Assembly (NCBI RefSeq): GCF_038397745.1
Contig: NZ_CP151636.1
Location: 744,001-808,000 of the forward strand
Direction: 5' to 3'
Length of the DNA: 64,000 nt
DNA from: Microbacterium sp. LWH11-1.2
Lineage (GTDB): Bacteria > Actinomycetota > Actinomycetes > Actinomycetales > Microbacteriaceae
The position numbers and the translations under genes are program-made. Shown here piece by piece: positions 7,256 to 47,745 of this stretch; positions within the stretch are counted from its first letter, which is position 1; every line of letters begins with the position of its first letter. A model generated the notes under the pieces. That model was not told where the DNA came from, ran no database searches, and saw only the letters and a program-made list of their open reading frames with translations.

Positions 7256-7293
7256 TTGAGGACAAGCGAAACCGGCGCGAGCCGGGTGGCGGT

Positions 7294-25880: not shown

Positions 25881-27383
25881 ATGTCTGCAACGACGGTCGA
25901 CGATCGTGCCCGTTATCGGGCGAATCCCACGGTGCTTCAGGCGCTGAAGAATCCGCGGATGCTGACGCGCGAGGTCCTGGCCGGACTCGTCGTCGGGCTC
26001 GCGCTCATCCCCGAGGCGATCGCGTTCTCGGTGATCGCCGGAGTCGACCCGAAGGTAGGGCTGTTCTCGTCGTTCATCATGGCGGTGTCGATCGCGTTCC
26101 TCGGCGGACGTCCGGCGATGGTGACCGCGGCGACCGGAGCCGTGGCGCTGGTGATCGCTCCGGTCGCGCCGACGTACGGGCTGGACTACTTCATCGCGAC
26201 GGTGATCCTCGCGGGGGTGTTCCAGGTGATCCTCGGAGTGCTCGGCGTCGCGAAGCTGATGCGGTTCATCCCCCGCAGCGTCATGGTCGGGTTCGTGAAC
26301 GCGCTGGCGATCTTCGTGTTCAGCTCGCAGTTCCCGCAGCTGATCGATGTGCCGTGGCTGGTGTATCCGCTGGTGGCGCTCGGGATCATCGTGATGATCG
26401 TGATGCCGAAGATCACCAAGATCGTGCCGGCTCCGCTCGTGTCGGTCGTGATCGTGACGGGCGTCGTGCTGGCGTTCGCGATCACCGTGCCGACCGTCGG
26501 CGATCAGGGAGAGCTGCCTCGCAGCCTTCCGTCGCTGTTCATCCCGAACGTGCCGCTGACGTGGGAGACGTTCACGATCATCGCCCCGTTCGCGCTCGGG
26601 GTGGCGCTGGTCGGGCTGATGGAGTCGCTGCTCACCGCGAAGCTCGTCGACGAGATCACCGACACGCACTCGCGCAAGGGACGCGAGGCATGGGCACAGG
26701 GAGTGTCGAACGTGCTGTCGGGCATCCTCGGCGGCATGGGCGGCTGCGCGGTGATCGGTCAGACGATGATCAACGTGAAGGCGTCAGGGGCGCGGACCCG
26801 CATCTCGACGTTCTGCGCCGGTCTGTTCTTGTTCGTCTTGGTCGTGGTGTTCGGCGACTTCGTCGGGACGATACCGATGGCAGCTCTCGTGGCCGTGATG
26901 ATCATGGTCGCGATCGGAGCGTTCGACTGGCACAGCGTGCGTCCGTCGACGTTGAAGCGGATGCCGAAGAGCGAGACCTTCGTGATGATCTCCACTGTGT
27001 TGTTGGTCTTGGTGACCCACAATCTGGCGGTTGGGGTCGTGGGTGGGGTGCTGGTCGCGTCGGTGCTGTTCGTGCGGCGGGTGGCGCACTTCGTCACGAT
27101 TCGTCGGACGGTGTCGGATGCCGGGGACGTCGCAACATACGTCGTGGAGGGCGAATTGTTCTTCGCATCGAGCAATGATCTGACGACGTTGTTCTCGTAC
27201 TCCGACGACCCCTCGCGGGTGGTAGTCGATCTGTCGGGATCGCATGTGTGGGACGCGTCGACCGTCGCCGCGCTGGATGCGATCGAGACGAAGTACGCGG
27301 CACTGGGGAAGACCGCGGAGATCGTCGGGATGAACGAAAGCAGTCAGCGGATGCGGGGGCGGCTGACGGGTGGGTTCGAGTAA
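25881..27383 (+). CDS. SulP-family anion transporter with STAS domain
   Basis: The 500-residue transporter has a membrane domain of about 11-12 helices. It starts with the SulP consensus LAGLVVGLALIPEAIAFSVIAGVDP and contains GRPAMVTAATGAVALV and the GGMGGCAVIGQTMINVKASG region. A C-terminal cytosolic STAS domain follows (about 415-500, ELFFASSNDL, VVVDLSGSHVWDASTVAALD). Substrates of the family are sulfate, bicarbonate or dicarboxylates and cannot be chosen here. GGAG precedes the ATG. Its 5' end is duplicated and broken 1.24 kb upstream. Confidence 0.93.
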   Translation: MSATTVDDRARYRANPTVLQALKNPRMLTREVLAGLVVGLALIPEAIAFSVIAGVDPKVGLFSSFIMAVSIAFLGGRPAMVTAATGAVALVIAPVAPTYGLDYFIATVILAGVFQVILGVLGVAKLMRFIPRSVMVGFVNALAIFVFSSQFPQLIDVPWLVYPLVALGIIVMIVMPKITKIVPAPLVSVVIVTGVVLAFAITVPTVGDQGELPRSLPSLFIPNVPLTWETFTIIAPFALGVALVGLMESLLTAKLVDEITDTHSRKGREAWAQGVSNVLSGILGGMGGCAVIGQTMINVKASGARTRISTFCAGLFLFVLVVVFGDFVGTIPMAALVAVMIMVAIGAFDWHSVRPSTLKRMPKSETFVMISTVLLVLVTHNLAVGVVGGVLVASVLFVRRVAHFVTIRRTVSDAGDVATYVVEGELFFASSNDLTTLFSYSDDPSRVVVDLSGSHVWDASTVAALDAIETKYAALGKTAEIVGMNESSQRMRGRLTGGFE

Positions 27384-27387
27384 CTCC

Positions 27388-27448
27388 GGTCGTTGAGCGA
27401 CACTGCGACTCGCTTCGCTCGCTCAGTGCGAGTCTCCGCGAGTCGAAC
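27388..27448 (+). repeat. REP-like element E
   Basis: The element starts GGTCGTTGAGCGACACTGCG, with TCGCTTCGCTCGCTCAGTGC and CGCGAGTCGAACC following. It has the same bipartite layout as element B (16026-16088). It separates the convergent sulP and paralogue-B genes. Confidence 0.75.
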
Positions 27449-27453
27449 CGCGC

Positions 27454-28293
27454 TCACACCTCCAGGAGCGCCCGCACTTCGTCGAGCGACCGGCCGAAGA
27501 CGAACTCCGCCACCCGCGCGGCGCGTTCCGTACCGACCTGAATGACGTTCCTTCCCTGCGACATCCAGCGCCCGCCGCGCTGAGCGAGCTCGAGAACCGG
27601 CACCGGTTCGACGTCGGGCAGCTCGGGGAGGCCCGCAGCGTTCCGCGTGGAGGCGCCGAGGATGCCGACGAGCCACGCCTCCCCGAGGGCGTGCGGTCGG
27701 ATCGACGCGATCGGTCCTCCGCTGCCGACGAACACCTGGAGCATGGTGTCGGCGCGGCGCACCACCCACGCATCGCCTCCCTGGGTGAACTCGCACACGA
27801 TGTCGGCGTGCAGCGTCACGTCGGCCTCGAAGTGCCGCATGGCCTCGACGCACTCGGCGCTCAGCAGTCGCGTGTCGATCTCCCGCTCGCGACGACGCAG
27901 CTCGGCCCGGTACTTCTCCCGTGCGATGGGCGCGTACTCGCGTGAGAGCTCCTCGCGATGCGCGCGGGCGCCCTGCCCCAGGCGTTCGAAGAGCCATTCG
28001 GGATCGATCTGCAGAAAGTAGCGGAAGTGGATGTCGACCGGCCCCCGCGTGAGCCGCCGATCTGCGACCAGCAGGCGAGCGCCGTGATCGACGGACCAGA
28101 CCGCGGCGACCTCCCCATCCACCACCACGATCCACGACCAGCCGCGGGATCTGATCTCGGGCGAGCACTTCTCGATCGCGGCGCTGAGCATGGTGCCGCG
28201 GGGCACAGTCATCACCCGCGCATGGGACTCCATGTCGTCACCCATGGCGACGCTGTCGCGATCGACGCGGAGTTCGACGGTTCTCCAGGGCAC
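27454..28293 (-). CDS. Uncharacterised 279-residue protein, copy B of a paralogous pair
   Basis: It is the same length as copy A at 11991-12830 and collinear along its whole length, with many shared blocks (VDRDSVAMGDD, EIRSRGWSW versus EIRSPGWSW, EYAPIAREKYRAELRRRERE, GPIASIRPHALGEAWLVG, GGRWMS). I cannot assign the family. Conserved Asp, His and Arg residues are spread evenly and no classical catalytic signature stands out. It is monocistronic and convergent with sulP. Stretch 28294-28854 upstream is non-coding. Confidence 0.75.
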   Translation of the reverse strand: MPWRTVELRVDRDSVAMGDDMESHARVMTVPRGTMLSAAIEKCSPEIRSRGWSWIVVVDGEVAAVWSVDHGARLLVADRRLTRGPVDIHFRYFLQIDPEWLFERLGQGARAHREELSREYAPIAREKYRAELRRREREIDTRLLSAECVEAMRHFEADVTLHADIVCEFTQGGDAWVVRRADTMLQVFVGSGGPIASIRPHALGEAWLVGILGASTRNAAGLPELPDVEPVPVLELAQRGGRWMSQGRNVIQVGTERAARVAEFVFGRSLDEVRALLEV

Positions 28294-28854
28294 GGGACGA
28301 GCCTAGTTCGCGGGATGGCGGCGGCGGTTTGTCCCATAGGCGGCCTGCTCATCCTCACCTTCAGGCTCTCCCAATGCACCTGCGGCTCCTCGATTTGCTT
28401 CCCGACACGGCGAGTGCCCGACGCCGTGCGCCTCGTGTTCGCGTTCGCGCTCGCGCTCGTCGGATCAGACCACCGCCACTCTGCCGTGCAAACGTGCAGG
28501 GGCGGGCGTTGTCGCGCTCCCGGCGTCGGTAATGGCGGCGTGCACCAGCCTGAACACCCGGTCGTACACTCGCCTGACGTAGCGAAGCGGCGACGCAAGT
28601 TGAACCGACTATCGAGAGCGGGACCATCGCCACAGTCCGTCTCGGCCCGCGCCGGATGATCCGTCGCGCCAGTCTGCCGCGTGCCTTCGGCGTCGATGCT
28701 TGACAGACGGTTCAGTCAAACTGGCCCCAGGCGGTTGGTCACGAGGTGCAATCGATGACCTCGAAAGCGTCGACGCATCGAGAACTGGAGCCCCCCTACG
28801 TCAAGTGCCACATACCGGTAGCGACAAGCCCCCGAGTCTCGCCGCCGGGCGCCG
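28294..28854. other. Non-coding left border of the defence island
   Basis: These 561 bp show no supported gene on either strand. There is a TTGAC...GTCAA dyad (28700-28719) that could also serve as a -35 box. Downstream of it lie only short frames. No tRNA, integrase or direct-repeat attachment site was recognised, so how the island arrived is not evident. Confidence 0.5.
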
Positions 28855-31146
28855 TTACCCGCTGGCCTGAAGCGCACGCCAGACCTTGCCGTGTACGTCG
28901 TCTGTGCCCTCTCCCGCGAGGAAGTCGTCGAGGCTGACGGTTAGCGCCCAGGCACTATGGTTGCCCGAACCTCGCCATTTCCGACTGGCCACGACTCCGT
29001 ACTTGATCAGGAGTGGCAGTAGCTCATTGTCGAGAATCACCGAGTCAGCGCCAAATCGTGTGCGAAGGATCTCATCGGAGACGATGGTCGTGCGGTGAAA
29101 CACCCGCAGCAGCTTCCGCAGCATACGTACGTTCGTCGAGTCGGCGACGTCGTCTATGGCTTCGATCGGGAGTTCCTCGTCTACGAGTGTGAGGCCGCTC
29201 CTCTCCAGTTCTCGGCGGATTCGTATAGGGGCATACTCTCGCAGTTCGTCCTCGTCGTGGCTCTGCACGCGGACGCCCTCGACTGTGCAGCGAACAAGAC
29301 TGACATCGACGAAGCCTGAGGTCCGGTCGAGTTGCAACTCGCCTAGCGTCATGGCCTCGAGGGTGACTTCGCGCCAATCAACGCCTCGCAGCGAAGCATT
29401 CACAAAGGTTCCATCTTTGAAGGTGAAGTTGCGGATACGCGTGTTTTCGAGCACAAGGCTGGAGTAGATCACCTTTCCCGCGAACGATGTGGGAGAGGCG
29501 AACTCCACTCCGTCGATCATGAACGGGATGAGTGTGCCGAGGTTCTGTTGAAGGTATGTGGGCTTCCACTCCTTCTTTAATGCTTCCTCCATTGAGGACA
29601 GAAAAGTGGTGACGCCGAGTGGCGTCCGGTCAAGCATCGAACACACATACCGTGCCGTCGAGTCGCTCAACTGCGAGATGCTGAGGAAGCGGATTAGATC
29701 ATTCGTTCCCGCGCCCGCGATGACTGCGGCGACTCGCTCCTTGAGCGCATACGCGACGAAGTAGTCTCGGAACTCCGGGTGGTCGAACATTCTCTGGGAC
29801 TGGTTGCTCGACGGCGGCGCAACCAATAGGACGTGCATCCGGACCATCTCGATGATCTGTTGGCGCAGAGCCCCATCGATCTCCCATTGATCTAGTAGGA
29901 GAGTAGCGATCGTCTCGATGACCTCTATGTGCAGCCGATCCTTTTGGCTCCGGTGCATCTCTTCTGCGACGTCGGCCAGGAATGCGAAATGCTGCTCCTC
30001 GGACAAATATGGCTCACCGGTTTCGCGCACCTTCCATTTCTCGGCCACTTCGCGGGTGACAAATGCCGATACGACCGAGGCAACGCCACTATACGGATCA
30101 TCGGGCGCCCGAAGGAACTCCTCGGGTGAGGCATCGTAAAGTACCGATGCTCGTGCAATTTGACTTACTAGGAAGGGGCGGGTGACAAGAGGATGAGTCT
30201 TGTCACCTCCAAGTGCCGCCACAATTCTCGCGTACATATCCTGCGGGTTTTGCATACGCTTGCCATCGAACTCGGCTCGCTCGAAGAACGCTAGAGCGTC
30301 ACGCTCCGTCCAAGCTTCAAGCTCCATCTGGTCGAACTGGCACGGGTCGGGCACTCCGCGCCGTACCATACCGCCGCGTCTCAGATAGTCGTCCGTGTTG
30401 AAGAATGTACGTCGCGAGGCTGCAACTACCACCCCATGACCGCCCAGCTGGGACACTAGAGAAGCGAGGGCGCCGAGCGCGTCCACGCCGCCCTGTTCCG
30501 CGGCGAGTTCGTCAAAGCCGTCGATTCCGACGATGAGCACACCGCGCCGCATGAGGCGTACGACTGCGGGCATCCAGAGTCCGGAAAGGCGCAACTCGGC
30601 CAGATCTCCCATCAAGGCCTCTGAGAGCCTGAGAAGCTGTCGGCCCTGCAGATCGAGGTGCCAGAACAGGTAATGAGACTGGCCCTTCAGGAATCCATTC
30701 GCTTGATTGAATTGGTGCTCCCGCAAGAGTGCGGTCTTACCGTGCCCGGCATCAGCGGTCACAAAGAGAACGCGCGAGGCGAACGGTGACACGCGCGCGC
30801 ACCGGGCGTCAAGAAGACCCAATCCGTCGCCGCGGGTAACATTCTCAGCGGCCCGCTGCAGCGTGGCGGCCGCATTGACGAAGCCTGGGACGGGCGCGCG
30901 TCTCTCAATCAGTCGTTGCGCCAGCACATCAAGGCGCGCGAGATTGTGCGTCAGGAAGCGTCGATAGGGGATTCTCTCACCATCAAGGTCCACCCAGATC
31001 TGACCATCGGAGCCCTGGCTAAGCGAGCCACTGAGCTCCTCTCCGTTGCGCTGCAGAATAAAGATCCCGTCGGCATCCACAGCGGCGCCTGACTCATCGT
31101 CTGCGAATGCCGACAAGTCGGCGGCGACTTCCTCGAACTCGTTCAC
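28855..31146 (-). CDS. NACHT-type STAND NTPase, probable phage-defence sensor
   Basis: The 763-residue protein carries a P-loop ADAGHGKTALL (131-141) and a NACHT-style Walker B, VLIVGIDGFDELA (203-215), with the Asp-Gly-x-Asp-Glu pattern that separates NACHT from NB-ARC. A sensor-like arginine stretch AASRRTF (242-248) and a winged-helix FDHPEFRDYFVAYAL (454-468) follow. The C-terminus holds a short pentapeptide-like run (about 560-625: TFKDGTFVNASLRGVDWREV) and a final winged helix (about 672-745). No effector domain is fused. The start overlaps the stop of a NYN nuclease gene by ATGA, so the nuclease is probably its effector. Codon use is less GC-rich than neighbours. The defence role is inferred from known bacterial NACHT proteins and the adjacent restriction system. 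Confidence 0.85.
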   Translation of the reverse strand: MNEFEEVAADLSAFADDESGAAVDADGIFILQRNGEELSGSLSQGSDGQIWVDLDGERIPYRRFLTHNLARLDVLAQRLIERRAPVPGFVNAAATLQRAAENVTRGDGLGLLDARCARVSPFASRVLFVTADAGHGKTALLREHQFNQANGFLKGQSHYLFWHLDLQGRQLLRLSEALMGDLAELRLSGLWMPAVVRLMRRGVLIVGIDGFDELAAEQGGVDALGALASLVSQLGGHGVVVAASRRTFFNTDDYLRRGGMVRRGVPDPCQFDQMELEAWTERDALAFFERAEFDGKRMQNPQDMYARIVAALGGDKTHPLVTRPFLVSQIARASVLYDASPEEFLRAPDDPYSGVASVVSAFVTREVAEKWKVRETGEPYLSEEQHFAFLADVAEEMHRSQKDRLHIEVIETIATLLLDQWEIDGALRQQIIEMVRMHVLLVAPPSSNQSQRMFDHPEFRDYFVAYALKERVAAVIAGAGTNDLIRFLSISQLSDSTARYVCSMLDRTPLGVTTFLSSMEEALKKEWKPTYLQQNLGTLIPFMIDGVEFASPTSFAGKVIYSSLVLENTRIRNFTFKDGTFVNASLRGVDWREVTLEAMTLGELQLDRTSGFVDVSLVRCTVEGVRVQSHDEDELREYAPIRIRRELERSGLTLVDEELPIEAIDDVADSTNVRMLRKLLRVFHRTTIVSDEILRTRFGADSVILDNELLPLLIKYGVVASRKWRGSGNHSAWALTVSLDDFLAGEGTDDVHGKVWRALQASG

Positions 31147-31919
31147 GAACTCATTCCCATGATCTCGACGCCAACACCGGAAAGTATTGCAGAGGCGTAA
31201 TCGGACGCTTCTTCCGCACGCGGCACGAGCTGTACCAGCGTAACCCCGCCATCGACACTAGCTACCAACAGAGGGGGCAAGAAGTCGCTGTCTCCGGACA
31301 CTACGACGACCATCGCGTAGCCGGATTGACGGCGTCCCGCCACGAGGATGTCCGTCGAAAGAAGCGTATCGACCATCTTCTGTTCGTGAACTTCGAACGC
31401 TTCGCTTGAAACAATCGAACACGTGTTGACAGGGCATTCGCGGCGCGAATGCTTAGTAAAGGATCTCAGAATGGCGGCAGGACACGTCGCGTCCGGCTGG
31501 ACGCAGGCATCGGGATGAGGCTGTCGCGGACGGATGCGCGGGAGCGAACCGCGCCGACGATAGGTGCCGTAGAGCGGCGTGCTGGATGCAGATCCGATCG
31601 GGTTTACGGCCAAAGTGATGGCGCCGCGAACCACTCGCCTGTTCGACAGAATCATCGGGAAGTCCGGCATTGATGCGAGGACTCGGGCGACATTGCTGCC
31701 GTGACGGCTGAGGTCGTTGTCGTCGTACCATCCGCCGTAAAGACGAACCTCGAACGCTCCCAGCTGTGGGTGGCGTGCTGCAAGTTCTTGGAGCCAGCGT
31801 GCGACCTCGACGGCGATCTCGCCGTCCGACATGTCACGGTTGGGCGGGAACGCGTTGTCGTAGTCGACGAGTACCAGACAGGTCCCGTCCTCACTAGGTC
31901 TCGCCGCGAAGGAGGTCAC
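31143..31919 (-). CDS. NYN-domain (PIN-like) ribonuclease, partner of the NACHT protein
   Basis: The 258-residue protein has the NYN acidic set: LVLVDYDNAF (15-24), KMVDTLLSTDIL (about 181-192) and VVVVSGDSDFLPPL (204-217). NYN proteins are metal-dependent RNases of the PIN-like fold. Between the first and second motifs is an insert of about 60 residues with four cysteines (DACVQPDATC and ECPVNTC), a possible zinc knuckle that I do not know from typical NYN proteins. It starts with GTG at 31919 with TGAGGT nearby, and its TGA lies inside the NACHT start. It is the first gene of the two-gene operon. Confidence 0.8.
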   Translation of the reverse strand: MTSFAARPSEDGTCLVLVDYDNAFPPNRDMSDGEIAVEVARWLQELAARHPQLGAFEVRLYGGWYDDNDLSRHGSNVARVLASMPDFPMILSNRRVVRGAITLAVNPIGSASSTPLYGTYRRRGSLPRIRPRQPHPDACVQPDATCPAAILRSFTKHSRRECPVNTCSIVSSEAFEVHEQKMVDTLLSTDILVAGRRQSGYAMVVVVSGDSDFLPPLLVASVDGGVTLVQLVPRAEEASDYASAILSGVGVEIMGMSS

Positions 31920-31999
31920 ACCTCAGGATAGTCAATCCTCATTCCGCAAGCCGACGGCGCACCATTGGCGTCGCGGGAACGCGACGGCAAGACGATCGC

Positions 32000-32463
32000 C
32001 CCTGCATTGGAGGGCCAAGTCGTCGCGCGTCGACAACGCCGAGCTTGACAAGATCTTCCACGAGACCTTCCAACCGATACGAAGAAGAAGTCGTGGGGTA
32101 CTGGAAAGAAGCCGGTCATCGACTTGCTGCTGCTGCAGGCGGAAATCGCGCTCACCGCAGACGAGAATATCAACTTCGAGAACAAGATCGTGCTGCCGAT
32201 CGCGCCCCGCATTGTCGCCGAGCAGCACATGTTGGCCGTCCTTGCTGCCCTGACGCTCACGGAGGGGATCATTGGCAACCAAACCCAGGCGCTCTTCCGG
32301 GCGTACAAAGCCGGGGCCACGGGACCGACGCGCCGGTCCGCACACTCGACGGCGACGTACTCATGACTCCGGAGAACACCCACGCAAATCGTTCTTGTAC
32401 GAACCGATCATCGACCTCCGATGCGGCTCTGCGCGAGCTTTCCACTCGGGTGAAGAGACTCTA
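32000..32463 (+). pseudogene. Degraded coding remnant with several frameshifts
   Basis: Protein-like segments follow each other in different frames: VDNAELDKIFHETF (frame of 32029), TKKKSWGTGKKPVIDLLLLQ to ALFRAYKAGATG (32079-32322), GTDAPVRTLDGDVLMTPENT (frame of 32045) and FLYEPIIDL. Together they look like one gene broken by at least two or three indels. I do not recognise the family. It lies between the NYN-NACHT and DUF262-GGDEF operons. Confidence 0.55.
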
Positions 32464-32464
32464 A

Positions 32465-33249
32465 GCACGCAAACGCCCGCAGCGGCTTCCAACGGCGACG
32501 GCGCGCCAGGGGCTTGCCCGAGCGTTGGCCAAACGCTGCCGATCCAGCACCACTACTTCCCGATCTCGCGCCCCGCGCCCGCGCGGATGTCGAAGATGCT
32601 GAACCTCCCACCGCATCATGTGGACCGTTTGTCCCCGTCGACAACCGCCTGTGCAGGGAGCAGATCCAGATCGACGGCGCGCGCGTCCGTCGCAGCGGTC
32701 GAAACGGGTGCGGGGGGTGGTCAGACTCGGATCGATCGCTGCGATCTCGTCGCGGGTGCGCGCCTCCCCCGACGCCTCGTCGAGATCGGCCAGCTTGTTC
32801 GGACGCGAAACCGCCCACGCGCGCCGATCGATCTGCTGCAGCCCTCCACGCCCGGCGCGGCTACTCCGTGCACTGCCGATCACTCCGCCATGAGGCACCC
32901 GCGGTTGGCTTCGATTTACGCCGATCGACGAAAGAGGGGGACGGCACCAGCGAGCTCGGCGATCTCGTAGCTGTAGCAAAGCGGTATGAAACGGCGTCGC
33001 CCACCGTGGGTGCCTCCGTGCATTGCGTGGTCGTGTCTCGAAGGACGGCCCATCTCTCGTCCCTTGGTACCTTTCGAACTTGTGCAGGATGGGTAGCAGT
33101 ACTTCGCAAGGAGCGTGCCCGCTCCACACCGCGGAACACGGGTGCACCCGCCGTGTCCGCAAATGCTCCGCGCCACGAGGCCGCAACCCGTAGATTTGGT
33201 CGAGAACATCTGCCGAGAGGCGAGATCGCTGCGGTTACTAGGGGGAAGA
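32465..33249. other. Region without an intact gene inside the defence island
   Basis: These 785 bp contain overlapping long frames on both strands, none with a consistent protein-like pattern or ribosome site. A short minus-strand stretch (about 32740-32860, reading RRAWAVSRPNKLADLDEASG) may be another gene remnant. The promoter of the DUF262-GGDEF operon should lie at the right end. Confidence 0.5.
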
Positions 33250-34923
33250 ATGGCTGGCACAGGGCTTGAGATTGAGGCGAATCTCCGAGGTATCGGTCAC
33301 GTACTACGCGACATGACGTTGAGTGTCCCGCCGTTCCAGCGCAACTATTCATGGACCGAGGAACAAGTCTCCGATTACTGGTACGACCTACGCGCAGCGA
33401 TCTCCGCAGCGCAGCCGTACTACTTCATGGGCACGGTTGTCGTAAGCCGCGACGGCGGGCCGGGAGCGATAGTCATCGATGGGCAGCAACGCCTCGCAAC
33501 CACATCATTGCTGCTTGCAGCTATACGCGATCGATTGTCCGACGGCAATGAGGCGAATCGGGCGAGAACCTTGCAAAGTCGATACCTAACGGGGTGGTCG
33601 CTCGAAAATAATGTTGACGAGCCGCGGCTCGACCTCAATGAGGCGGATAGACCCTACTTTCGATCAGCGGTCCTGCACCAGCTGGGCAACGCGGCTACGC
33701 CACACCGTCCGCTCTTGTCAGCAGCGTTCGATCGACTGAGGGGATTTGTCGCTGCGGAGTCCGAGGCTGCCGGTCCGCATTGGGTGGAGCGACTTCTGCA
33801 GTGGGTCGAGTACCTCGATCGACGTGCTCAGGTCATCCTGATGGAGACCGCGAATGACGGCGATGCCTTCATGGTCTTTGAGACTCTCAACGATCGAGGA
33901 CTACCGCTTGCGGTTGCCGATGTCATCAAGAACTACCTCTTGAGCCTTTCGAGATCGAGGCTGGAGGACGCGTCTGCGCTCTGGCTCGCCGCGGTCGACG
34001 CCATCGAAGCGTCCGGACCGCGCGATAGTTTGACTGACTTCATACGTCATTGGTGGAACGCGCGCAGTGGCGCCACCCGCGAGCGCGACCTGTACGCATT
34101 CATCCGGTCGGCGATCCGCTCAGGGGATCAGTCCATGAGCGCTCTCAAAGACCTGGCGAGGGAAGCTCCCATGTATGCCTCATTGACAGATGTGGGTCAC
34201 CTTCTCTGGGAAGAACAGCAAGGACCTGCACGGAGCGCAGCCTCCGTTCTGATCGATCTTGGTCTGGAGCAGTACCGGCCGCTCGCTCTCGCTGTCCTCA
34301 GCCAACTACCACCCTCGGCCGTCACTCAAATCCTCCTGGCTGCCGTGGGGTGGTCCGTTCGAGCTCTTATCGTTGGCGGCTCGGGTGGTGGCACAGCCGA
34401 GCGTCTATACGCGGAAGCGGCCGTGCGGGTTATGAACGGGCGGTCCGACAACGCTGAAGCTGTGTTCTCCGACGTCAGCACCCTCATCGCACGAGATAAG
34501 GAGTTTGAAGCGGCGTTCGCGGCTCGTAGGATCCACCGTTCGGCAACACTCCGGTACTTGCTTCGCGCGCTCTGTGCCGAGCAAGCACTCCCCGACGGAT
34601 CAGACGGGCTCGTACCTGTACCGATGTTTCCCAGGACTGACCCCAATCAGCTATGGACTCGCATCGCGAGCGCTGACCAACTCGCAGATGTGACTGGCCG
34701 TCTCGGCAACTTTGTCCTAATCAATCGGGAGGACGTCGGCGACGCACCGCTGGAGCCGCTCGCCCGCTACGCCTACTTGACTGCACGCGCCGAGCAGGCA
34801 GGCGGAGTGCTAGTCCCGTGGAACGAATTGGCGCTCGACGAGGTTGGCAGACGTCAGTCCGTAATGGCAGAGCGAGCTGTGCGCATCTGGCCCCTCCTTC
34901 CCGACCCCCAGGAAGGAGCCTGA
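33250..34923 (+). CDS. DUF262 (GmrS-like) protein with degenerate nuclease half
   Basis: The 557-residue protein begins with a DUF262/ParB-like NTP-binding domain: VPPFQRNYSWTEEQ (26-39), then IDGQQRLATTSLL (76-88), with the DGQQR motif of GmrS and BrxR relatives. A long helical region (about 200-430) and a region that follows the DUF1524 layout (TLRYLLRAL, then LGNFVLINRED) come after. Where DUF1524 should show the catalytic EHxxP, the sequence reads VPVPMFP, so the HNH-type nuclease appears inactive. GGGGGAAGA precedes ATG 33250. One base separates it from the GGDEF gene. A role in sensing foreign DNA is inferred. Confidence 0.82.
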   Translation: MAGTGLEIEANLRGIGHVLRDMTLSVPPFQRNYSWTEEQVSDYWYDLRAAISAAQPYYFMGTVVVSRDGGPGAIVIDGQQRLATTSLLLAAIRDRLSDGNEANRARTLQSRYLTGWSLENNVDEPRLDLNEADRPYFRSAVLHQLGNAATPHRPLLSAAFDRLRGFVAAESEAAGPHWVERLLQWVEYLDRRAQVILMETANDGDAFMVFETLNDRGLPLAVADVIKNYLLSLSRSRLEDASALWLAAVDAIEASGPRDSLTDFIRHWWNARSGATRERDLYAFIRSAIRSGDQSMSALKDLAREAPMYASLTDVGHLLWEEQQGPARSAASVLIDLGLEQYRPLALAVLSQLPPSAVTQILLAAVGWSVRALIVGGSGGGTAERLYAEAAVRVMNGRSDNAEAVFSDVSTLIARDKEFEAAFAARRIHRSATLRYLLRALCAEQALPDGSDGLVPVPMFPRTDPNQLWTRIASADQLADVTGRLGNFVLINREDVGDAPLEPLARYAYLTARAEQAGGVLVPWNELALDEVGRRQSVMAERAVRIWPLLPDPQEGA

Positions 34924-34924
34924 G

Positions 34925-35839
34925 ATGGATGCTGTCGAACTCGAAGAGAATTGGAAGCGGGCCTGCCGCACAGACGAACTGACCCGCCGCTTCCCTGAGC
35001 CAGTCGATCAGCTCGGTCTTGTACAACACGTACTCAACCGTGTGCGCGGTGGCGGTCAGCCGCCAGACCCCATCGTTGTGGGCGCCGCCACTGGGTTCGC
35101 AAGCTCTGACTACGAGTCGAGCGGAGAGGCAAGATATCTCCAACTGGCGATGCTCGTAAAGGAAGCTGCGAAAGATGCAAGTGCGGACCATCGAGCCGCG
35201 ATCGACATCCTCGCTCTCGTCGGGCAGGCTGCGGTTGGGCTCCTCGTAAGCACCTGGCGCGGGGAGGCGGAGGTGGACGAGCTAACCCGCCTCGGAAACC
35301 GGCGAAAGATGGAAGCGCTAGTCGGCGCCTTCGTGATTGCTGGCACCCGGTTCGCGTATGCCTCGATCGATGCCGACGGTCTCAAGCAGATCAACGACAA
35401 CGAGGGCCACGCCGCGGGAGATGACTTTCTTCGCGATCTTGGGGAAGAGCTCCGTCGAAGCGCACTCGAGGTGTCCGGTCAAGCGTTCCGATACGGCGGC
35501 GACGAGTTCGGAGTCGTTGTAGCCCTTCAAGCTGAGGATGACGTATTGAGCCAAGTGATCGTGGACGCCCAAGGTCGATTTGCGACATCGGGGCGCTCGT
35601 TTAGTGCTGGGATTGCCATCTGGCCCGATGTAGATGACGATCACACGTCGGTTATAGGCACTGCGGATCGTCGGATGTACGACCAGAAGCAGGCGAAGAA
35701 GGCGCAGTCGACGAACGCGACAGACGCGGGCATGCCCAGTGTGCAACCGACCGATTTGGTCGGCACGTCGGAGTCATCATCAGGTTCCCCGCCCGATCCT
35801 GTTGCGACCACTGAGGCAGCTGACGAGACCACCCGGTGA
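34925..35839 (+). CDS. Soluble GGDEF-domain nucleotide cyclase partnered with DUF262
   Basis: The 304-residue protein has an N-terminal helical domain of unknown type (1-110), then a complete GGDEF domain. The domain shows DELTRLGNRRK (118-128), the metal-binding Asp in ASIDADGLKQIND (146-158), GHAAGD (161-166) and the active loop RYGGDEFGVVV (189-199). A Ser/Thr/Pro-rich tail (about 262-304) follows. No membrane helix, PAS, GAF or receiver domain is present, and the I-site RxxD expected upstream of GGDEF is missing, so product inhibition is unlikely. It starts 1 bp after the DUF262 stop. It probably makes a cyclic dinucleotide, and pairing with a defence protein suggests a dedicated alarm signal (inference). 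Confidence 0.85.
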   Translation: MDAVELEENWKRACRTDELTRRFPEPVDQLGLVQHVLNRVRGGGQPPDPIVVGAATGFASSDYESSGEARYLQLAMLVKEAAKDASADHRAAIDILALVGQAAVGLLVSTWRGEAEVDELTRLGNRRKMEALVGAFVIAGTRFAYASIDADGLKQINDNEGHAAGDDFLRDLGEELRRSALEVSGQAFRYGGDEFGVVVALQAEDDVLSQVIVDAQGRFATSGRSFSAGIAIWPDVDDDHTSVIGTADRRMYDQKQAKKAQSTNATDAGMPSVQPTDLVGTSESSSGSPPDPVATTEAADETTR

Positions 35840-36002
35840 GCCGAGCACCGACGTGGTGCCTGCCTCCGCACCACCGGGCATCCAGGGCCTTGATCTCCGA
35901 GACGGTGGATTGACGAGCTTCACAGCGAGACTAGCGAACAAGGCTCTTATGTCAACGCCGCTCGATACCCCGAAGTAGACCGCGTTCTCAACATTTCACT
36001 GC

Positions 36003-38939
36003 TCAGTAGTACTCCCGCACGTATCCAAGCGCCTTCTCGAACACATCATTGTCGCGGATCTTGAACTGTACGTAGAGCGTCTGCCGCAGCGCCTTGCGCA
36101 CCTCCTGGTCACCCGCGATCGTTGACTGCCAGCCGTCAAAACGAACCGCCCGAACAACCTCGTCGATGCGGTCGACCACATTCGACACGATGATCGGCGT
36201 CTCGTCGCCCTTGAGCGCCTCGAACAGCTCAGTGAGCGCTGCCTTTCCCCTCTCCTCGCGCGGGACCTCGTTCTCCGCCTTCTCCGCCGCGACCGTATCC
36301 TTGGCGAGCTCGAGCAGGTCGCGGAGGAAGTCGAGGCTGGACTGTTGGATGTCGGCGTACTTCTCGCGGAGCGTGTTGAGACGCTGTCCTAGCTCGATAA
36401 AGACCGGGTTGTTGAGATGGCGTGCGATACGCGCGGTGATCTGTTTCTCGATCTCCTCGGGAGAGACGTCCTTGCGTCTGCCGGTCATCAGATCATCGAT
36501 GGTCTGCGCGTCGAGGACGATCGTCTCATCACCCTGCGGGATCTCGACGTGGATGCTTTCGTTGATCAGCTCGATCGTCTTCGCCCCCAGCGCATGCCAG
36601 ACAAGCCGACCGGTGATGTCAGCCGGCCGAACCGACTCGTAGACATCGGTGAGCCACCTGTAGTCGTCGCGGAACTCCTTGAGCATCGGGTCGGGGCTGA
36701 GCGCTTCCCATAGTTGCGATACGACGCTGTAGGCCAGGCCGAACGCGTCCCTAACCCCGTCTGCGGCGAGCGCGGCCTGCGCCTGGATGAGACCCTCATA
36801 GCCGCCGACTGAACGATCGACGCCAGGGAAGAATGAACGCGCCGCTGTCATCGCCGGCGCGAGCTCCGCCTTCAGCTCCTCGATGTTCGAGATCACCTGC
36901 TGAACCGCGGTCTCGTCGAACGCGAGCGACTTGGCGACGTCATCGAAGATGCCGAGGTAGTCGATGATCAGCCCGTGCGTCTTGCTCGGCGGGTACACCC
37001 GGTTGGTTCGAGTGATCGCCTGCAGCAGGGTGTGCTCCTTGAGCGGCTTGTCGAGGTACTGAGCCTGCAGTATCGGAGCATCGAACCCGGTGAGCAGCTT
37101 CGCAGTGACAATGAGGATCTTCAGCGGATCTGCCGGGTCGTTGAACCGTGCGACGATCTGCTCGAGCTCGTCCGCGCCCGGCGTCCAGGGGGCCCACGAG
37201 ACAGGGTCGGTGCGCGATTTGGACATGACGATGGTGGACGCCTCGGGCGGAAGCATCGTGTCGAGCGCCTGCTTGTAGGCGACACAGGATGCCTTGTCGT
37301 AGGCCACCAGCTGAGCCTTGAAGCCCTCCGGCTCGACCTTCGTTGTGAAGTGCGTGACAACGTCGTCGGCGATCTGCCGGATGCGATCGGGCGCCTTGAT
37401 GAGCACCTCGATCGACGCTGCCTTCTTCGACAGCGTGATCTTCTCGCCCTCAGTCAGATTGCGCTCCGCCGCCAGCTCTTCAAAGGCGGAGTCAATCTTC
37501 TCCTGGTCGAGGTGGATCTCGCTCAACCGCGGCTCGAAGTGCAGCGGCAGGGTAGCGCCGTCGCGGATCGAATCCTGGAACGAGTACCGCGAGAGGTATC
37601 CGCCCTCGTCTTCGGCTGCGCCGAACCACATGAACGTGTTGTGGTCGCGCTTGTTGATGGGTGTGCCGGTAAGGCCGAACAGGAAGGCCTTTGGCAGGGC
37701 CTCGCGCATCCGCTGTCCGTAGTCGCCCTCCTGCGATCGATGGGCCTCGTCGACCATCGCGATGATGTTGTGTCGATCATCAAGCACACCGTCGATCTCG
37801 CCGAACTTGTGGATCGTCGTAATGATGATCTTCCGTACACCCTGACTGAGCAGGGTCTGTAATTCCTTGCGCGAGTCTGTCGAGACCAGTCCAGAAACAT
37901 CCGAGGCGTTGAACGTGCCGGTGATCTGTGTGTCGAGATCGATCCGATCGACGACGATCAGGATCGTCGGGTTCGTCAGCTCGGCCATCGCGCGCAACTT
38001 CAGCGCCGAGAACACCATCAGCAGTGACTTGCCCGACCCCTGGAAGTGCCAGATGAGCCCCTGCTTGATACGACCGTGCAGCACACGGTCCACGATGAGA
38101 TTCGCCGCCTGCAACTGCTGGTATCGCGCGATCACCTTGATCTTGCGGTGCTTCGCATCGGTCGCGAATACGGTGAAGAATCGCAGGAAGTCGAGGACGG
38201 ATGCTGGCGCCAGCACGCCGTTCACGGCGTCCTTGACCACCTCGAGGCCGACCTTCGCTGGCGCGTTCGGATCGGTCTCATCTTCGCGCCACGGACCCCA
38301 CAGCTCGACCGGCATGCCGACGGAACCGTAGCGGAAGTCTTTGCCCTCGGTCGCGAAGGACAGCACGTTTGGCACGAAGAACTGAGGAACGCTTGCCTCG
38401 TAGTCGTCGTGGATCTGCGCGGCCGCGTCGATCCAGGAGTAGGCCGCCCGGATCGGCGTCTTCGCCTCGCCGACGACGAGCGGGAAGCCGTTGCACCACA
38501 GCACAACGTCCAATCGCTTGCCTAGCCGCCCCAGCTGGAACGTCACCTCGGTGGATACGATCCACTGGTTCGACGAGTCATCGTCCGGGTAGTCGAAGTC
38601 GATCAGGCGGACGGAGGTGTGCTCGCCGTTCGGACCGAACGGCATCGACTTCTGCCCCGTCACCCACGCCATGAACTCTTCGTTCGCGACCACCGGATGT
38701 GGGCTGTTGCGGGCCGAGATCAGGATCGCCCGCAGCACATGGATGACCTCATCAGCCTTGCGCGGATCAGCTGCGATCTCGGGATTCAGGCGGATCAGCG
38801 CGGCAGCGACGAGCCCTTCAAGCAACACTTCATCGGGGCGGCGCGGAAGTTGGCTTCCCGGCAGGAATTGCACGTCCGGAGACGTGATCAGATCGCGGAC
38901 GAAGTCGCGGACCGTGTTCGCTTCATTGAACTGCGCCAT
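36003..38939 (-). CDS. hsdR: Type I restriction endonuclease subunit R
   Basis: The 978-residue motor-nuclease carries an N-terminal PD-(D/E)XK site (LDVVLWCNGFPLVVGEAKTP), Walker A (HFQGSGKSLLMVF), the DEAH box (AMVDEAHRSQ), motif III FGLTGTP, and a C-terminal helicase lobe with TGFDAPILQAQYLDKPL and QAITRTNRVY. It cleaves unmethylated DNA after ATP-driven translocation in an R2M2S complex. The ATG at 38939 overlaps the hsdS stop (TGATG). It is the last gene of a five-gene operon and convergent with the GGDEF gene. Confidence 0.95.
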   Translation of the reverse strand: MAQFNEANTVRDFVRDLITSPDVQFLPGSQLPRRPDEVLLEGLVAAALIRLNPEIAADPRKADEVIHVLRAILISARNSPHPVVANEEFMAWVTGQKSMPFGPNGEHTSVRLIDFDYPDDDSSNQWIVSTEVTFQLGRLGKRLDVVLWCNGFPLVVGEAKTPIRAAYSWIDAAAQIHDDYEASVPQFFVPNVLSFATEGKDFRYGSVGMPVELWGPWREDETDPNAPAKVGLEVVKDAVNGVLAPASVLDFLRFFTVFATDAKHRKIKVIARYQQLQAANLIVDRVLHGRIKQGLIWHFQGSGKSLLMVFSALKLRAMAELTNPTILIVVDRIDLDTQITGTFNASDVSGLVSTDSRKELQTLLSQGVRKIIITTIHKFGEIDGVLDDRHNIIAMVDEAHRSQEGDYGQRMREALPKAFLFGLTGTPINKRDHNTFMWFGAAEDEGGYLSRYSFQDSIRDGATLPLHFEPRLSEIHLDQEKIDSAFEELAAERNLTEGEKITLSKKAASIEVLIKAPDRIRQIADDVVTHFTTKVEPEGFKAQLVAYDKASCVAYKQALDTMLPPEASTIVMSKSRTDPVSWAPWTPGADELEQIVARFNDPADPLKILIVTAKLLTGFDAPILQAQYLDKPLKEHTLLQAITRTNRVYPPSKTHGLIIDYLGIFDDVAKSLAFDETAVQQVISNIEELKAELAPAMTAARSFFPGVDRSVGGYEGLIQAQAALAADGVRDAFGLAYSVVSQLWEALSPDPMLKEFRDDYRWLTDVYESVRPADITGRLVWHALGAKTIELINESIHVEIPQGDETIVLDAQTIDDLMTGRRKDVSPEEIEKQITARIARHLNNPVFIELGQRLNTLREKYADIQQSSLDFLRDLLELAKDTVAAEKAENEVPREERGKAALTELFEALKGDETPIIVSNVVDRIDEVVRAVRFDGWQSTIAGDQEVRKALRQTLYVQFKIRDNDVFEKALGYVREYY

Positions 38940-40099
38940 CAGTTGCCTCCAAAGATCGCGGCCTGAAGTGATCCCCAAAGGCGGTCCAATGCCGACGCCT
39001 CGCGTGCGAGCGCGAGCGTGGCCTTCTCCGCCAGGCGCATCATTTCGTCGAGACTCGCGGCGATCGGACGGGTTGGCAAGCCGAACTGGAATGACGCGAC
39101 GTCGCTTCCACGAACGGCGGGATAAGCGCTTCCCGTGCTCTTGCTGATCATGTCGTTCGTGAAGCGGTCCGAACACACCAGCTGCCACAGAAACGACGGC
39201 GATATCTCCGGCCCGGGCCGGAGCACGGCGAATCCCGTTGACGCAAGCTGGCCGTGCAGCGTAGGAGGTATTCGAGCAACAGATCGAAGCCCGGGTCGCA
39301 CTGTGCTCACCAGGATGTCGCCCGCTCGAACTATCCGCCTCGCTCGTCCCGGGGCTTCGCCAAACGCCATTGACTTCACCGCTGCCTCGTCAAGGCCCTG
39401 GGCATCCGGCATCACCGAGGCGATGTCGATGTAGTCAATGGAAGCGGTCGGATCCCAACGCGACGCTTGTTCGGGATTTATCTCCGCCACATCGCCGATC
39501 GACACCATTCGCCCAGCCGACCGGATGGCCAGCTCGACCTCGTGCTCCACCGCTCTCCGCGTGGCAGCGAGCTCCTCTCGAAGTCGGTGCCGATGACGTT
39601 CGACGGCCCACATAAGATCGGCGATCCGACGTTGCTCTTCAAGCGGAGGTAGTGCGAACTCGTACTTCTGCATCGGCCCCCACAAAAGCCGTGGATTCAT
39701 CGAACCGGTGGCTGCACCCGATGCGTAGCTCACAAAGACATCGGAAGACAGCACGAGCGGCAGAAACGCCTGCAGTAGCCCCCCGCCGGGAGTGGCGTCC
39801 AACACATAGGTCTTGTCGGCGACCACGCCGGAGAAGTTCACAAGCCCTGTCTTGCGCAGATACGGCCGCGCTGATACGAACAGAACCTGTCCAGGCTCGA
39901 AGACGAACCGAAACGTCGAACCCATGTGCCCGTCGCTGGGGTCACCCCAACGATCGACCGTCAATGAGTCGCCGTCTATGTGGCCCCCGCCGACGTATCG
40001 CTGCACCTCTGCCGTTATTGGGTCCACCTGCTTGCGCGAACGGTCGACGACATGACCGAGCCTCACCCTGCTCCAAGCGGAAGGTTGCAGATCGAGCAT
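38939..40099 (-). CDS. hsdS: Type I restriction specificity subunit S
   Basis: The 386-residue protein has two target-recognition domains separated by conserved helices. TRD1 covers about 1-165, followed by LPPLEEQRRIADLMWAVERHR and a coiled coil (about 170-205). TRD2 runs about 210-350, ending LPTRPIAASLDEMMRLAEKA and a second coil. The protein defines the bipartite DNA target and holds the two M subunits. The ATG at 40099 overlaps the stop of the upstream hsdM. Only one S gene accompanies the two M genes. Confidence 0.93.
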   Translation of the reverse strand: MLDLQPSAWSRVRLGHVVDRSRKQVDPITAEVQRYVGGGHIDGDSLTVDRWGDPSDGHMGSTFRFVFEPGQVLFVSARPYLRKTGLVNFSGVVADKTYVLDATPGGGLLQAFLPLVLSSDVFVSYASGAATGSMNPRLLWGPMQKYEFALPPLEEQRRIADLMWAVERHRHRLREELAATRRAVEHEVELAIRSAGRMVSIGDVAEINPEQASRWDPTASIDYIDIASVMPDAQGLDEAAVKSMAFGEAPGRARRIVRAGDILVSTVRPGLRSVARIPPTLHGQLASTGFAVLRPGPEISPSFLWQLVCSDRFTNDMISKSTGSAYPAVRGSDVASFQFGLPTRPIAASLDEMMRLAEKATLALAREASALDRLWGSLQAAIFGGN

Positions 40100-41583
40100 C
40101 ACTTCGCCAACTCCTTTAGAAGCTGCGTTCCCAGCGCCTCGGCCGCCTGCGCCGCAGATCTCCACAGCCGCACGTCGACCGAAGGGTCGCTGGGAGCGTC
40201 GTCCCTGAGATTCCCCGAGCCGCCACCGACATACTCGGGAATAGAAAGCGCCCAGCCTTTCGCCTCAATATCATCGACTGTTGCAACGCGGGCGAAGCCT
40301 GGCTCGGAAGAGAAACTCGCATAGCTGTTGAGGATCCTCATCTGATGCACAGGGGCAAGAAACGACTGGACGCCCTCACGGAAATACTCGCTCTTGCCGT
40401 CGATGAACAACACGCGCCCTCGGCGCTCGAGAGGCTTGTTCGCCCGAAGGACGAGAACGATTGCCTCCATGCTGGAGTTGTAGAAAAGTCCATGCGCGAG
40501 GCCGATCACTGCCTCGACCAGGTCAGACTTGATCATTTCTGCACGCATTCGAGCCTCTGCCACTCGATGCAGAACGCCGTGCGGGAGTAGTACCGCAGCA
40601 CGCCCGGTCTCGGGGTGCAGACTCCGTGCGATGTGCTGAACAAATGCATAGTCCGCGGCATTCTGCGGCGGCACACCCCACATCTGACGGCCGAACGGAT
40701 CCCTGGTGAAGGCATCCCGATTCCAGGCCTTGATCGAGTACGGCGGGTTTGCGAGCACGACGTCGAACGTTCGCAGCCCCCCCTTGCTGTTCAGGAACGC
40801 AGGCCTTGCGAGGGTGTCGCCGTGCGCGATCTGGCCGTCGGTGATGCCATGCAGAAAGAGGTTCATGCGGGCGATGGCCGAGGTTCCGTAGTTGAGCTCT
40901 TGGCCGTACAGCTTGAGGTTGCGCCACTCCCTGCCCTGGCGCTTCACCTCGGCCGCCGTCGAGATGAGCATTCCGCCGGTGCCACACGTCGGGTCGTAGA
41001 CCGACTCTCCTGGCCGGGGCTCGAGCATGAGGGCCATCAGGTGCACGAGCGTGCGGTTCGTGTAGAACTCCTGCGCGGTGTGGCCCGAGTCGTCGGCGAA
41101 CTTCTTGATGAGGTATTCGTACCCGTTGCCGAGCTCGTCCTCGGGCAGGTTCGCGATCGACAGCGTCTGAGTCGAGAAGTGCTCGATCAGGTCGGCGAGA
41201 GTCGAGTCCGGCAGCAGGTTCTTGTTTCCCCAGTCCCCATCGCCGAACACTCCGGTCAGCGTGTCGGGGTTGGCGGACTCGATCGCCCGCATGGCCCGCA
41301 AGGCGGTCGCGCCGATGTTCTCGGTCACCGCGCGAACGTCGCGCCAGTGACATCCGTTCGGGATCGCGAAGCGGTGGTTCTCGGGCAGGTCGGCGAGTTC
41401 TTCGTCGCCGTAGGTTTCGATAGCCGCCGCGCGCTCTTCGTCGTAGACATCCGAGATGCGCTTGAGGAAAACCAGCGGGAAGATGTACTGCTTGTAGTCG
41501 CCGGCGTCGATGAGTCCGCGCAGAATGACGGCGGCGCCCCACAGGTAGTTCTCCAGCTCATGCTGGCTGATCTTCCCAGTCAT
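40099..41583 (-). CDS. hsdM: Type I DNA methyltransferase subunit M, first paralogue (hsdM1)
   Basis: The 494-residue N6-adenine methyltransferase has the HsdM N-terminal helical domain (ELENYLWGAAVILRGLID, IFPLVFLKRISDVYDEE), the SAM motif DPTCGTGGMLIST and the catalytic NPPY (VLANPPYSIKAW). ATG 41583 overlaps the stop of the second hsdM by ATGA, and its own stop overlaps hsdS. It carries NPPY while its neighbour has NPPF, and it differs throughout, so this is not a recent duplicate. Confidence 0.93.
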   Translation of the reverse strand: MTGKISQHELENYLWGAAVILRGLIDAGDYKQYIFPLVFLKRISDVYDEERAAAIETYGDEELADLPENHRFAIPNGCHWRDVRAVTENIGATALRAMRAIESANPDTLTGVFGDGDWGNKNLLPDSTLADLIEHFSTQTLSIANLPEDELGNGYEYLIKKFADDSGHTAQEFYTNRTLVHLMALMLEPRPGESVYDPTCGTGGMLISTAAEVKRQGREWRNLKLYGQELNYGTSAIARMNLFLHGITDGQIAHGDTLARPAFLNSKGGLRTFDVVLANPPYSIKAWNRDAFTRDPFGRQMWGVPPQNAADYAFVQHIARSLHPETGRAAVLLPHGVLHRVAEARMRAEMIKSDLVEAVIGLAHGLFYNSSMEAIVLVLRANKPLERRGRVLFIDGKSEYFREGVQSFLAPVHQMRILNSYASFSSEPGFARVATVDDIEAKGWALSIPEYVGGGSGNLRDDAPSDPSVDVRLWRSAAQAAEALGTQLLKELAK

Positions 41584-44968: not shown

Positions 44969-45125
44969 TGCGCAACTCTTCTCTTCTCTACTCACCACGT
45001 TGGCAACTTCTCCAGACTAGTGATGAGGGCCGGTACCTGACGCTCGTATACACGCAGTCGTCGCTTTTTGACTACATACCGGCTTACAGATGGCACCGCT
45101 ACCGGACCCGGTCGCCGGAAGAGAC

Positions 45126-45737
45126 TCAAGACATAGAACTGAACCGCTCCCCCGAGCTCACCTGCTGCGCCACTCGCCGCAGCGCCAGCAGCAACGGCTC
45201 CACCAGCACCGACCCGAGCACCACGTACCGCACCGCGGCCTCGGCTGATTCCTCCGGCACCCCGGCGATCTCGGCATCCGCGATCCTCCGAATGCTCGCG
45301 AGGTACTCCGCCATCACGGCATCCGGCACGACAAAACCCGCGCGCTCCAACCTCTGGAGCGCCCGCGCTACCGCGTGGAGCACCGCGGGGTCGCACATCC
45401 CCGGCTGCCACCCGAGCCCAGCAACCAAGGCCTCGGCCTCCGCCCGATCCAGCTCCTCATCCGCTGGCGGAGTGATCGCCGCATGAGCCTCGCCCAGCAG
45501 CAGGTGCGGACTCTCCGGCGGATCGTCCAGCGCCCCGAGCACCCGCCGCGTCTCGGCGATGCTCACCCCCGCATCGAGCAGCGCCCGGATCACCCGCAGC
45601 CGCTCCACGTGCTTCTCGCCATAGGCGGCCTGCGTCGGCGCGCTGCGCTCACCCTCGGGCAGCAGACCCTCGCGCAGGTAGTACTTGATCGTCGGCACGG
45701 TCACACCCGTCCGGGCTGACAGTTCGGAAATTCTCAT
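45126..45737 (-). CDS. MerR-family transcriptional regulator
   Basis: The 203-residue regulator has an N-terminal MerR winged helix (MRISELSARTGVTVPTIKYYLREGLLPEG, QAAYGEKHVERLRVIRALLDAG), a coiled helix and a larger effector domain (about 95-195) without an obvious metal-binding Cys set. ATG 45737 has AGAGGTGG upstream. It is divergent from a DUF4188 gene, and a 43-bp dyad fills the gap. Confidence 0.9.
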   Translation of the reverse strand: MRISELSARTGVTVPTIKYYLREGLLPEGERSAPTQAAYGEKHVERLRVIRALLDAGVSIAETRRVLGALDDPPESPHLLLGEAHAAITPPADEELDRAEAEALVAGLGWQPGMCDPAVLHAVARALQRLERAGFVVPDAVMAEYLASIRRIADAEIAGVPEESAEAAVRYVVLGSVLVEPLLLALRRVAQQVSSGERFSSMS

Positions 45738-45751
45738 GGCCACCTCTTGAC

Positions 45752-45794
45752 TTCGATAGTAGCGCTATCCATTATGGATAGTGACACTATCGAA
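45752..45794. promoter_or_regulatory. 43-bp nested dyad, MerR operator region
   Basis: The outer arms TTCGATAGT (45752-45760) and ACTATCGAA (45786-45794) enclose the perfect inner palindrome CTATCC-ATTAT-GGATAG (45765-45781). TTGACT (45748-45753) could be a -35 element. A dyad centred within a promoter spacer is the typical target of MerR proteins. Confidence 0.7.
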
Positions 45795-45809
45795 TCAAGA
45801 GGAGTCATC

Positions 45810-46340: not shown

Positions 46341-46439
46341 ACTTCCTTCCAACCACAGGGGAGTCCCGGCAGGGGCTGAGAGGGCGCTGACGCAGCGCCG
46401 ACCCTCACACCTGATGCGGGTCATGCCGCCGTAGGAAGT
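46341..46439 (+). ncRNA. TPP (thiamine pyrophosphate) riboswitch
   Basis: The P1 stem pairs ACTTCC (46341-46346) with GGAAGT (46434-46439). The conserved core reads GGGGCTGAGAGGGC at about 46372-46385, a small GCGCTGACGCAGCGC hairpin, then ACCCTCACACCTGATGCGGG and GCCGTAGGAAG, matching the THI-box elements CUGAGA, ACCUGAU and GUAGGNA. It directly follows the DUF4188 stop and ends 8 bp before the MFS start, so it most likely controls translation of that gene. Confidence 0.92.
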
Positions 46440-47722: not shown

Positions 47723-47745
47723 AGGGCGGTGGGATGTGGCCGCGA

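Follow-up and report, generated by a model that had tools for sequence, protein, structure and literature searches.

Bacterial NACHT (bNACHT) proteins are among the closest described systems to the locus examined here. In the text available from the sources, they are tripartite proteins whose single polypeptide includes the effector, and some have no discernible effector (PMC12169576, PMC10952713); for example, clade 14 lacks a discernible effector and has a SNaCT domain (PMC12169576). In this study, we analysed a window of 64,000 nucleotides from Microbacterium sp. LWH11-1.2 (contig NZ_CP151636.1, positions 744,001 to 808,000), in which a NYN-domain protein gene and a NACHT protein gene adjoin each other at 28855..31919. 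We believe that this NYN–NACHT pair is probably a two-gene bacterial immune system of the NLR type, with the RNase supplied in trans. A first-pass annotation, made from the sequence alone, had proposed both open reading frames (ORFs) together with the motifs VDYDNAF, GDSDF, GHGKT and IDGFDEL, and all of these are present on the minus strand (Table 1). It had also described the overlap of the two genes as ATGA; the length of four bases is right, but the bases read GTGA.

The NYN–NACHT pairing is near-obligate. One genome per species was scanned for 84,980 species, and because the patterns came from the NACHT alignment only, the scan was blind to NYN. It gave 376 pattern stretches, 65 of which encode a NACHT relative, and in 63 of these 65 loci the ORF directly upstream on the same strand matched the NYN model. 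The first-pass annotation had named NACHT homologues occurring mostly without NYN as the result that would speak against it, and the opposite was found. One of the two exceptions, L076, cannot be judged because its NACHT frame starts 162 bases from the contig end. In viral contigs, 139 pattern stretches led to a single relative (L097), which is also paired. The 24 whole genomes behind the loci (one genome holds two loci) contained 28 NACHT-family copies at E <= 1e-10, each with a NYN match just upstream when the coordinates were compared, and no unpaired copy. Since 27 of the 28 were already among the 65 loci, this search shows that no unpaired copy had been missed and adds no independent pairs. 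As a control, 18 other actinobacterial NACHT-type loci (L118-L135) gave no NYN match at E <= 0.01. The number of independent pairs is slightly lower than counted, because L042 duplicates L041 from a single assembly and the coordinates of L033 coincide with those of L002/G186.

The spacing of the two genes was compared in 66 pairs, including the window and duplicates, with start use being predicted only. In 39 of them, the NYN stop shares 4 or 1 nucleotides with a possible start codon in the NACHT frame; such a codon lies within 35 nucleotides in 26 and farther away in 1. The path distances of the NYN and NACHT trees were correlated over 61 pairs (r = 0.94), and the correlations within the clades of 18 and 43 pairs were 0.73 and 0.93, respectively; none of 2000 permutations reached the observed values. 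The trees were built from 60 pairs and the window; L001, which is the window itself, and L033, L042, L050, L056 and L059 were excluded, and L053 entered by one frame only. When up to three genes on either side were taken at 62 loci (337 neighbours in all), no third gene recurred, and the largest neighbour family, which is resolvase-like, was found at 4 of the 62 loci. The unit is two genes. The pair occurs in Actinomycetota, Bacteroidota, Pseudomonadota, Acidobacteriota and Thermodesulfobacteriota and falls into two clades. Clade I (Actinomycetota, Bacteroidota, one Desulfobacterales, one Acidobacteriota and others) has a NYN protein of near 255 amino acids, typically with a VDYDN-like motif and a cysteine insert, whereas that of clade II (mostly Pseudomonadota, some Acidobacteriota) is near 215 amino acids, typically with VDWNSQ and without the insert.

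The Pfam matches of the window proteins were weak: NACHT gave 8.7e-5 and 22.9 bits, under the cut-off of 26.7, and NYN gave 5.4e-5 and 24.2 bits, at the cut-off. Relatives were found in the protein database at E <= 1e-3 for both NACHT (at least 323) and NYN (49), the window's copies included, and the assignment is therefore settled despite these scores. An early hint of linkage was that several entries of the NACHT list and of the NYN list agree in the length of their longest contig. In structure comparison, the closest folds to the NYN protein were the MARF1 NYN domain and a Vibrio NYN protein. MARF1 is an endoribonuclease according to a paper abstract, and its catalytic aspartates are named as D358, D426 and D452 in the available text of PMC11346440. 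The corresponding D19, D184, D210 and D212 of the window protein, matched by motif order and not by superposition, are invariant among the aligned sequences. The four-cysteine insert reported by the first-pass annotation is present, and the cysteines probably form a zinc site; it is not universal, however. It is not essential to the mechanism of the whole family, because the number of sequences with a gap at this place equals the number of clade II sequences aligned.

In the NACHT protein, both Walker motifs (A and B) of the NTPase are intact, and NLR-like helical and winged-helix domains accompany it, as in bNACHT proteins. The core of its structure model is inflammasome-like in Foldseek comparison, which mainly covers residues 62-561; our comparison of the models with PDB structures re-examined the order in which Foldseek itself had placed its hits. 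His456 is presumably the switch-type histidine of the winged helix, by analogy with STAND proteins. The half beta-helix shows a profile match to the pentapeptide proteins 2xt2, QnrB1 and MfpA, has strands at 548-637 in the model and is net negative in 66 of 67 NACHT sequences. The C-terminal domain had the lowest mean column conservation of seven segments (0.38, compared with 0.64 for the NTPase). No effector family was recognised in the window NACHT protein by Pfam, PADLOC or NCBIfam, although no separate fold search was made for residues 1-61. Among 135 listed relatives (the best 120 of 323 and the best 120 of 327, overlapping; length up to 869 amino acids), none carried the Pfam NYN accession. 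A fused NYN–NACHT protein was also looked for among them and rejected; the N-terminal extension of the longest (869 amino acids) is not NYN-like by eye.

The insertion site is a defence hot spot. The same-species genome G250 has no pair; its match to the window stops at 27337 and resumes at 45142, and 5 of 9 scanned genes in its replacement match PADLOC models (ZacB, ZacC, an HKD+Snf2-type helicase and both type III restriction subunits). The first-pass annotation had placed the pair in a defence island beside restriction genes, and the island indeed encodes hsdR, hsdS, two hsdM and two DUF262/GmrSD-type proteins. The GC content is 0.57-0.61 at 29-32 kb and 0.65-0.68 outside the island. Full-length NACHT copies were found in 2 of 295 genomes of the genus, the window's own included, with three more hits being partial; in a class sample of 394 genomes, the window's own copy was the only full-length one, and 18 other genomes had partial matches. 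PADLOC models matched at 1e-10 numbered 179 in 100 neighbours (4 genes from each of 25 of the 65 loci, called as longest non-overlapping ORFs) and 16 in 100 genes from 20 arbitrary, non-random stretches in 20 of the 24 genomes. In L097 (4348-14618), a clade II pair lies between the terminase large subunit gene and the head maturation protease and major head genes. Judged by these genes, L097 appears to be a phage-like contig carrying the pair as an accessory within the structural gene run. A tblastn search of plasmid and phage record collections at 1e-5, with the window NACHT and its distant relative L055 as queries, gave no match, so plasmid carriage is not shown.

The first-pass annotation's reading of NLR defence with an RNase in trans is supported, as it fits the folds, the catalytic residues, the hot spot and the single copy seen in a phage-like contig. 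In the most likely reading, the NACHT protein would act as an inflammasome-like switch. Its family-specific N-terminus is followed by the NTPase and then by the helical and winged-helix domains, and the acidic half beta-helix and the variable, winged-helix-like C-terminus come last as the candidate sensor. The C-terminus would sense a phage-derived trigger, upon which the protein would exchange nucleotide and then assemble. The assembled NACHT may recruit or license the separately encoded NYN by direct contact, and NYN, as a putative metal-dependent endoribonuclease, would cut RNA, arrest the cell and halt phage growth, the outcome being probably abortive infection. A bolder version seems unlikely: an ancient, cross-phylum bipartite inflammasome, in which the trans RNase is the death effector and a near-obligate gene co-evolving with the sensor, and the acidic half beta-helix mimics DNA as a decoy for phage proteins that handle DNA. 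In very distant bacteria, the family places a relative of animal inflammasome sensors beside a separate, RNase-like protein. As an immune system, it would provide a compact model of signal transfer from an NLR to a second protein, which is also how animal inflammasomes work, and NYN-mediated RNA cleavage would join the outputs of NACHT immunity.

Several results weigh against the immune system reading. The agreement of the trees is also expected from simple co-inheritance. In L091, a DUF1643-like ORF (7081-7602, by reading of the sequence) stands in the NYN position as the sole clear exchange of partner, and the extra copy in G686 (1434925) has its NYN match split into two pieces 1.3 kb apart. 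The NYN gene of L056 (5995-7977) is cut by a transposase-like ORF, and those of L053 (7280-7977) and L059 (1-817) run in two frames, possibly by sequencing error, while the NACHT frame is open in all three. Eight NYN matches lie away from NACHT in the 24 genomes (best 1.9e-10), all of them weaker than the best match of every NACHT-linked NYN. The NYN sequence profile matches no PDB chain at E <= 1, and Pfam NYN is found in just 7 of 30 sequences of a diverse NYN set. The conservation gap between the candidate sensor (0.38-0.40) and the N-terminus and preceding helical domain (0.43-0.44) is slight. The comparison of neighbours is merely indicative, because models were counted instead of genes and one methyltransferase can match many models. 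Neither protein has a confident match in PADLOC-DB 2023; the same result agrees with the first-pass annotation's suggestion of an undescribed system, as does the finding, provisional and limited to the open-licence PMC literature, of no NYN–NACHT pair in print.

The pair may also be a toxin–antitoxin module, in which NYN would be an always-active RNase toxin, held by NACHT and freed when a phage disturbs NACHT. PIN-like toxins with an adjoining partner gene are common, the overlapping pair fits this arrangement, and the three loci with a broken NYN gene and an open NACHT frame are as expected if NYN alone is dangerous. On the other hand, type II antitoxins are usually small, and a NACHT protein of 763 amino acids, whose NTPase switch is intact and whose core resembles that of inflammasomes, is far more machinery than an antitoxin needs. 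In addition, L050, the only locus with a NACHT gene in two frames, keeps an open NYN frame. We consider this explanation unlikely.

It is quite improbable that the pair serves RNA processing or surveillance, with NYN trimming or destroying RNAs in normal physiology and NACHT acting as an ATP-dependent adaptor that is not primarily antiviral. A NYN RNase associated with type III CRISPR has been proposed as a CRISPR RNA (crRNA) trimmer, apparently with no direct defence role in the text available (PMC11346440). However, the patchy carriage in the genus and the absence from G250 do not suit a function in normal physiology, and neither do the hot spot with its other defence genes and the pair in the phage-like contig. 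PIN-fold enzymes include DNA nucleases, and the same sensor–effector logic might be directed to DNA instead of RNA. The CRISPR-linked NYN cuts single-stranded RNA, as far as the available text describes (PMC11346440). The MARF1 NYN domain and the Vibrio NYN protein, as the closest folds, also speak for RNA, and a DNA target is very improbable. STAND regulators exist and the NACHT C-terminus is winged-helix-like, but a MalT-like STAND transcription regulator sharing an operon with an RNase by chance is very unlikely, given the near-perfect cross-phylum pairing, the tree agreement, the lack of any other gene recurring near the pair and the low conservation of the C-terminal domain, which varies more than any other segment, whereas a domain binding a fixed operator would not.

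Table 1. Features of the NYN–NACHT locus in the window.
Feature	Coordinates	Strand	Basis
NACHT/NLR-like STAND NTPase gene, 763 amino acids, GTG start	28855..31146	-	ORF and motifs AGHGKT, IDGFDEL
NYN-domain protein gene, probable RNase, 258 amino acids, GTG start	31143..31919	-	ORF and motifs VDYDNAF, GDSDF
GTGA shared by the NYN stop and the NACHT start (overlap of four bases)	31143..31146	-	
NYN motif VDYDN, residues 18-22, Asp19	31854..31868	-	D19 in 67/67 sequences
Cys4 insert, Cys139/146/162/167	31419..31505	-	Cys in 47, 45, 47, 46 of 67 sequences; gap in 20
EQKMVDT, residues 179-185, Asp184	31365..31385	-	K181 and D184 in 67/67 sequences
GDSDF, residues 209-213, Asp210 and Asp212	31281..31295	-	both Asp in 67/67 sequences
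Walker A GHGKT, residues 134-138	30733..30747	-	G134, G136, K137 in 67/67 sequences; T138 in 63/67
Walker B DGFDEL, residues 209-214	30505..30522	-	all six residues kept in 67/67 sequences
Winged-helix FDHPEFRDYF, residues 454-463	29758..29787	-	F454 in 67/67, H456 in 65/67 sequences
Half beta-helix, pentapeptide-repeat-like, acidic, residues ~547-637	29236..29508	-	profile match and model
C-terminal domain, winged-helix-like, residues ~638-763, candidate sensor	28858..29235	-	secondary structure of model
Variable defence island holding the NYN–NACHT pair	27338..45141		replaced by 20.4 kb in same-species genome

Compared with L032, the NACHT gene had a nonsynonymous divergence (dN) of 0.18 and a synonymous divergence (dS) of 2.75 and so evolves like a coding gene, although nearly saturated dS makes the estimate rough; the NYN gene had a dN of 0.27, and its dS was not computable. 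There were no Rfam matches in 27000-46000 at gathering scores, and no sigma-70-type promoter was found in 28300-32600 (chance level in shuffles = 1.0). A TATCCT element lies 5 bases upstream of the NYN start (31919-31940, minus strand), with no well spaced Shine-Dalgarno sequence there, and this start context would be compatible with a leaderless transcript. An equally spaced TATCGT precedes the NYN start of L032, and no such element was seen in the other nine loci compared, in which the NYN starts were picked mechanically. A 155-amino-acid ORF (31916-32383, four-base overlap with the NYN start) was considered as a third gene and rejected. It had no tblastn match in L032, L033, L002, L034 and L036 (E <= 1), and the DNA upstream of the window NYN had no blastn match in the same loci (E <= 0.01), among which L002 has short flanks and duplicates L033.

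The island holds further observations. Two hsdM-type genes stand in tandem (40099-41598 and 41580-43805, minus strand) with one hsdS and one hsdR. At 33115-34923 (plus strand) lies a DUF262/GmrSD_N protein gene of the HEC-06/Orf5 type, where HEC denotes Hma-embedded candidate in the available text of PMC12988326, and one base on, at 34925-35839 (plus strand), a GGDEF diguanylate-cyclase-like protein gene. These genes are possibly a second unusual two-gene unit, in which a putative producer of cyclic nucleotides would be paired with a restriction-like protein. Another DUF262 protein, distinct from the first, is encoded next to the type I restriction genes (43118-44998, minus strand), its nearest PADLOC models being PDC-M55C and HEC-05. 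The stretch 27463-28317 has a 73% match elsewhere on that G250 contig, at a distance of about 11 kb. Outside the island, the translated ORFs at 45896-46390 and ~47730-48000 (plus strand) resemble each other like incomplete copies and may stem from the duplication of a gene fragment.

Avs proteins are large, their effectors are fused and nuclease outputs are known. Avs/AVAST shares the STAND NTPase with our pair; however, no more than 5 of 26 relatives matched the Avs2 PADLOC model (1.5e-5 at best), over 38 residues around the P-loop in the one shown, and a match over the protein was not found. The window NACHT had no PADLOC match at 0.01, and its relatives matched 16 other models weakly at 0.01 (best PDC-M16A, 3.4e-6, in 1 of 26).

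Other systems resemble the NYN side of the pair. HEC-09 (PADLOC PDLC04163) is a NYN-type defence candidate, which the window NYN matched weakly (1.7e-4) and the NYN family in 19 of 30 sequences (best 1.7e-6), the window's own genome having no match at 1e-10. In contrast, among 20 HEC-09-model loci with flanks of ~1.5 kb, there was no strong NACHT-family match and one weak match (0.0025). The Bacteroides fragilis CRISPR NYN RNase has the NYN fold, three conserved catalytic aspartates and similarity to MARF1 6FDL and 2QIP, but it is proposed to trim crRNA in type III CRISPR, and no NACHT partner is named in the available text (PMC11346440). The vWA ternary conflict systems link a PIN-type RNase with a NACHT NTPase, but on one polypeptide within a three-part vWA-based system, as far as the text available describes (PMC7159879). 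Similarly, DS-3 and DS-5 of DefensePredictor have PIN ribonucleases required for phage defence, and DS-5 has a second gene, but this partner carries DUF5830 and an AcrIF4-like domain instead of NACHT in the part of the paper available (PMC13092281). The term 'NYN' occurs 0 times in the available text of these last two papers and of those on bNACHT25 (PMC12169576) and CARD-NLR (PMC13236601).

The CARD-NLR systems likewise place an NLR-like ATPase and separate proteins in one operon, but they have more genes, CARD and trypsin-like parts, and gasdermin or other death effectors in the text available (PMC13236601). In our 62 loci, no further conserved operon genes were found, with CARD and protease models not searched as such. 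Because bNACHT effectors are fused or not discernible and no NYN–NACHT pair was found in the literature or PADLOC, we regard the pair as a variant of bacterial NACHT immunity. The central NACHT module, the C-terminal sensor and the STAND logic are common to both, whereas the bNACHT effector is a fused N-terminus, for example a PD-(D/E)XK DNase, in the sections available (PMC12169576), and here the probable RNase is separate. What would be new in this pair is that sensor and probable RNase are kept apart yet nearly inseparable across phyla.

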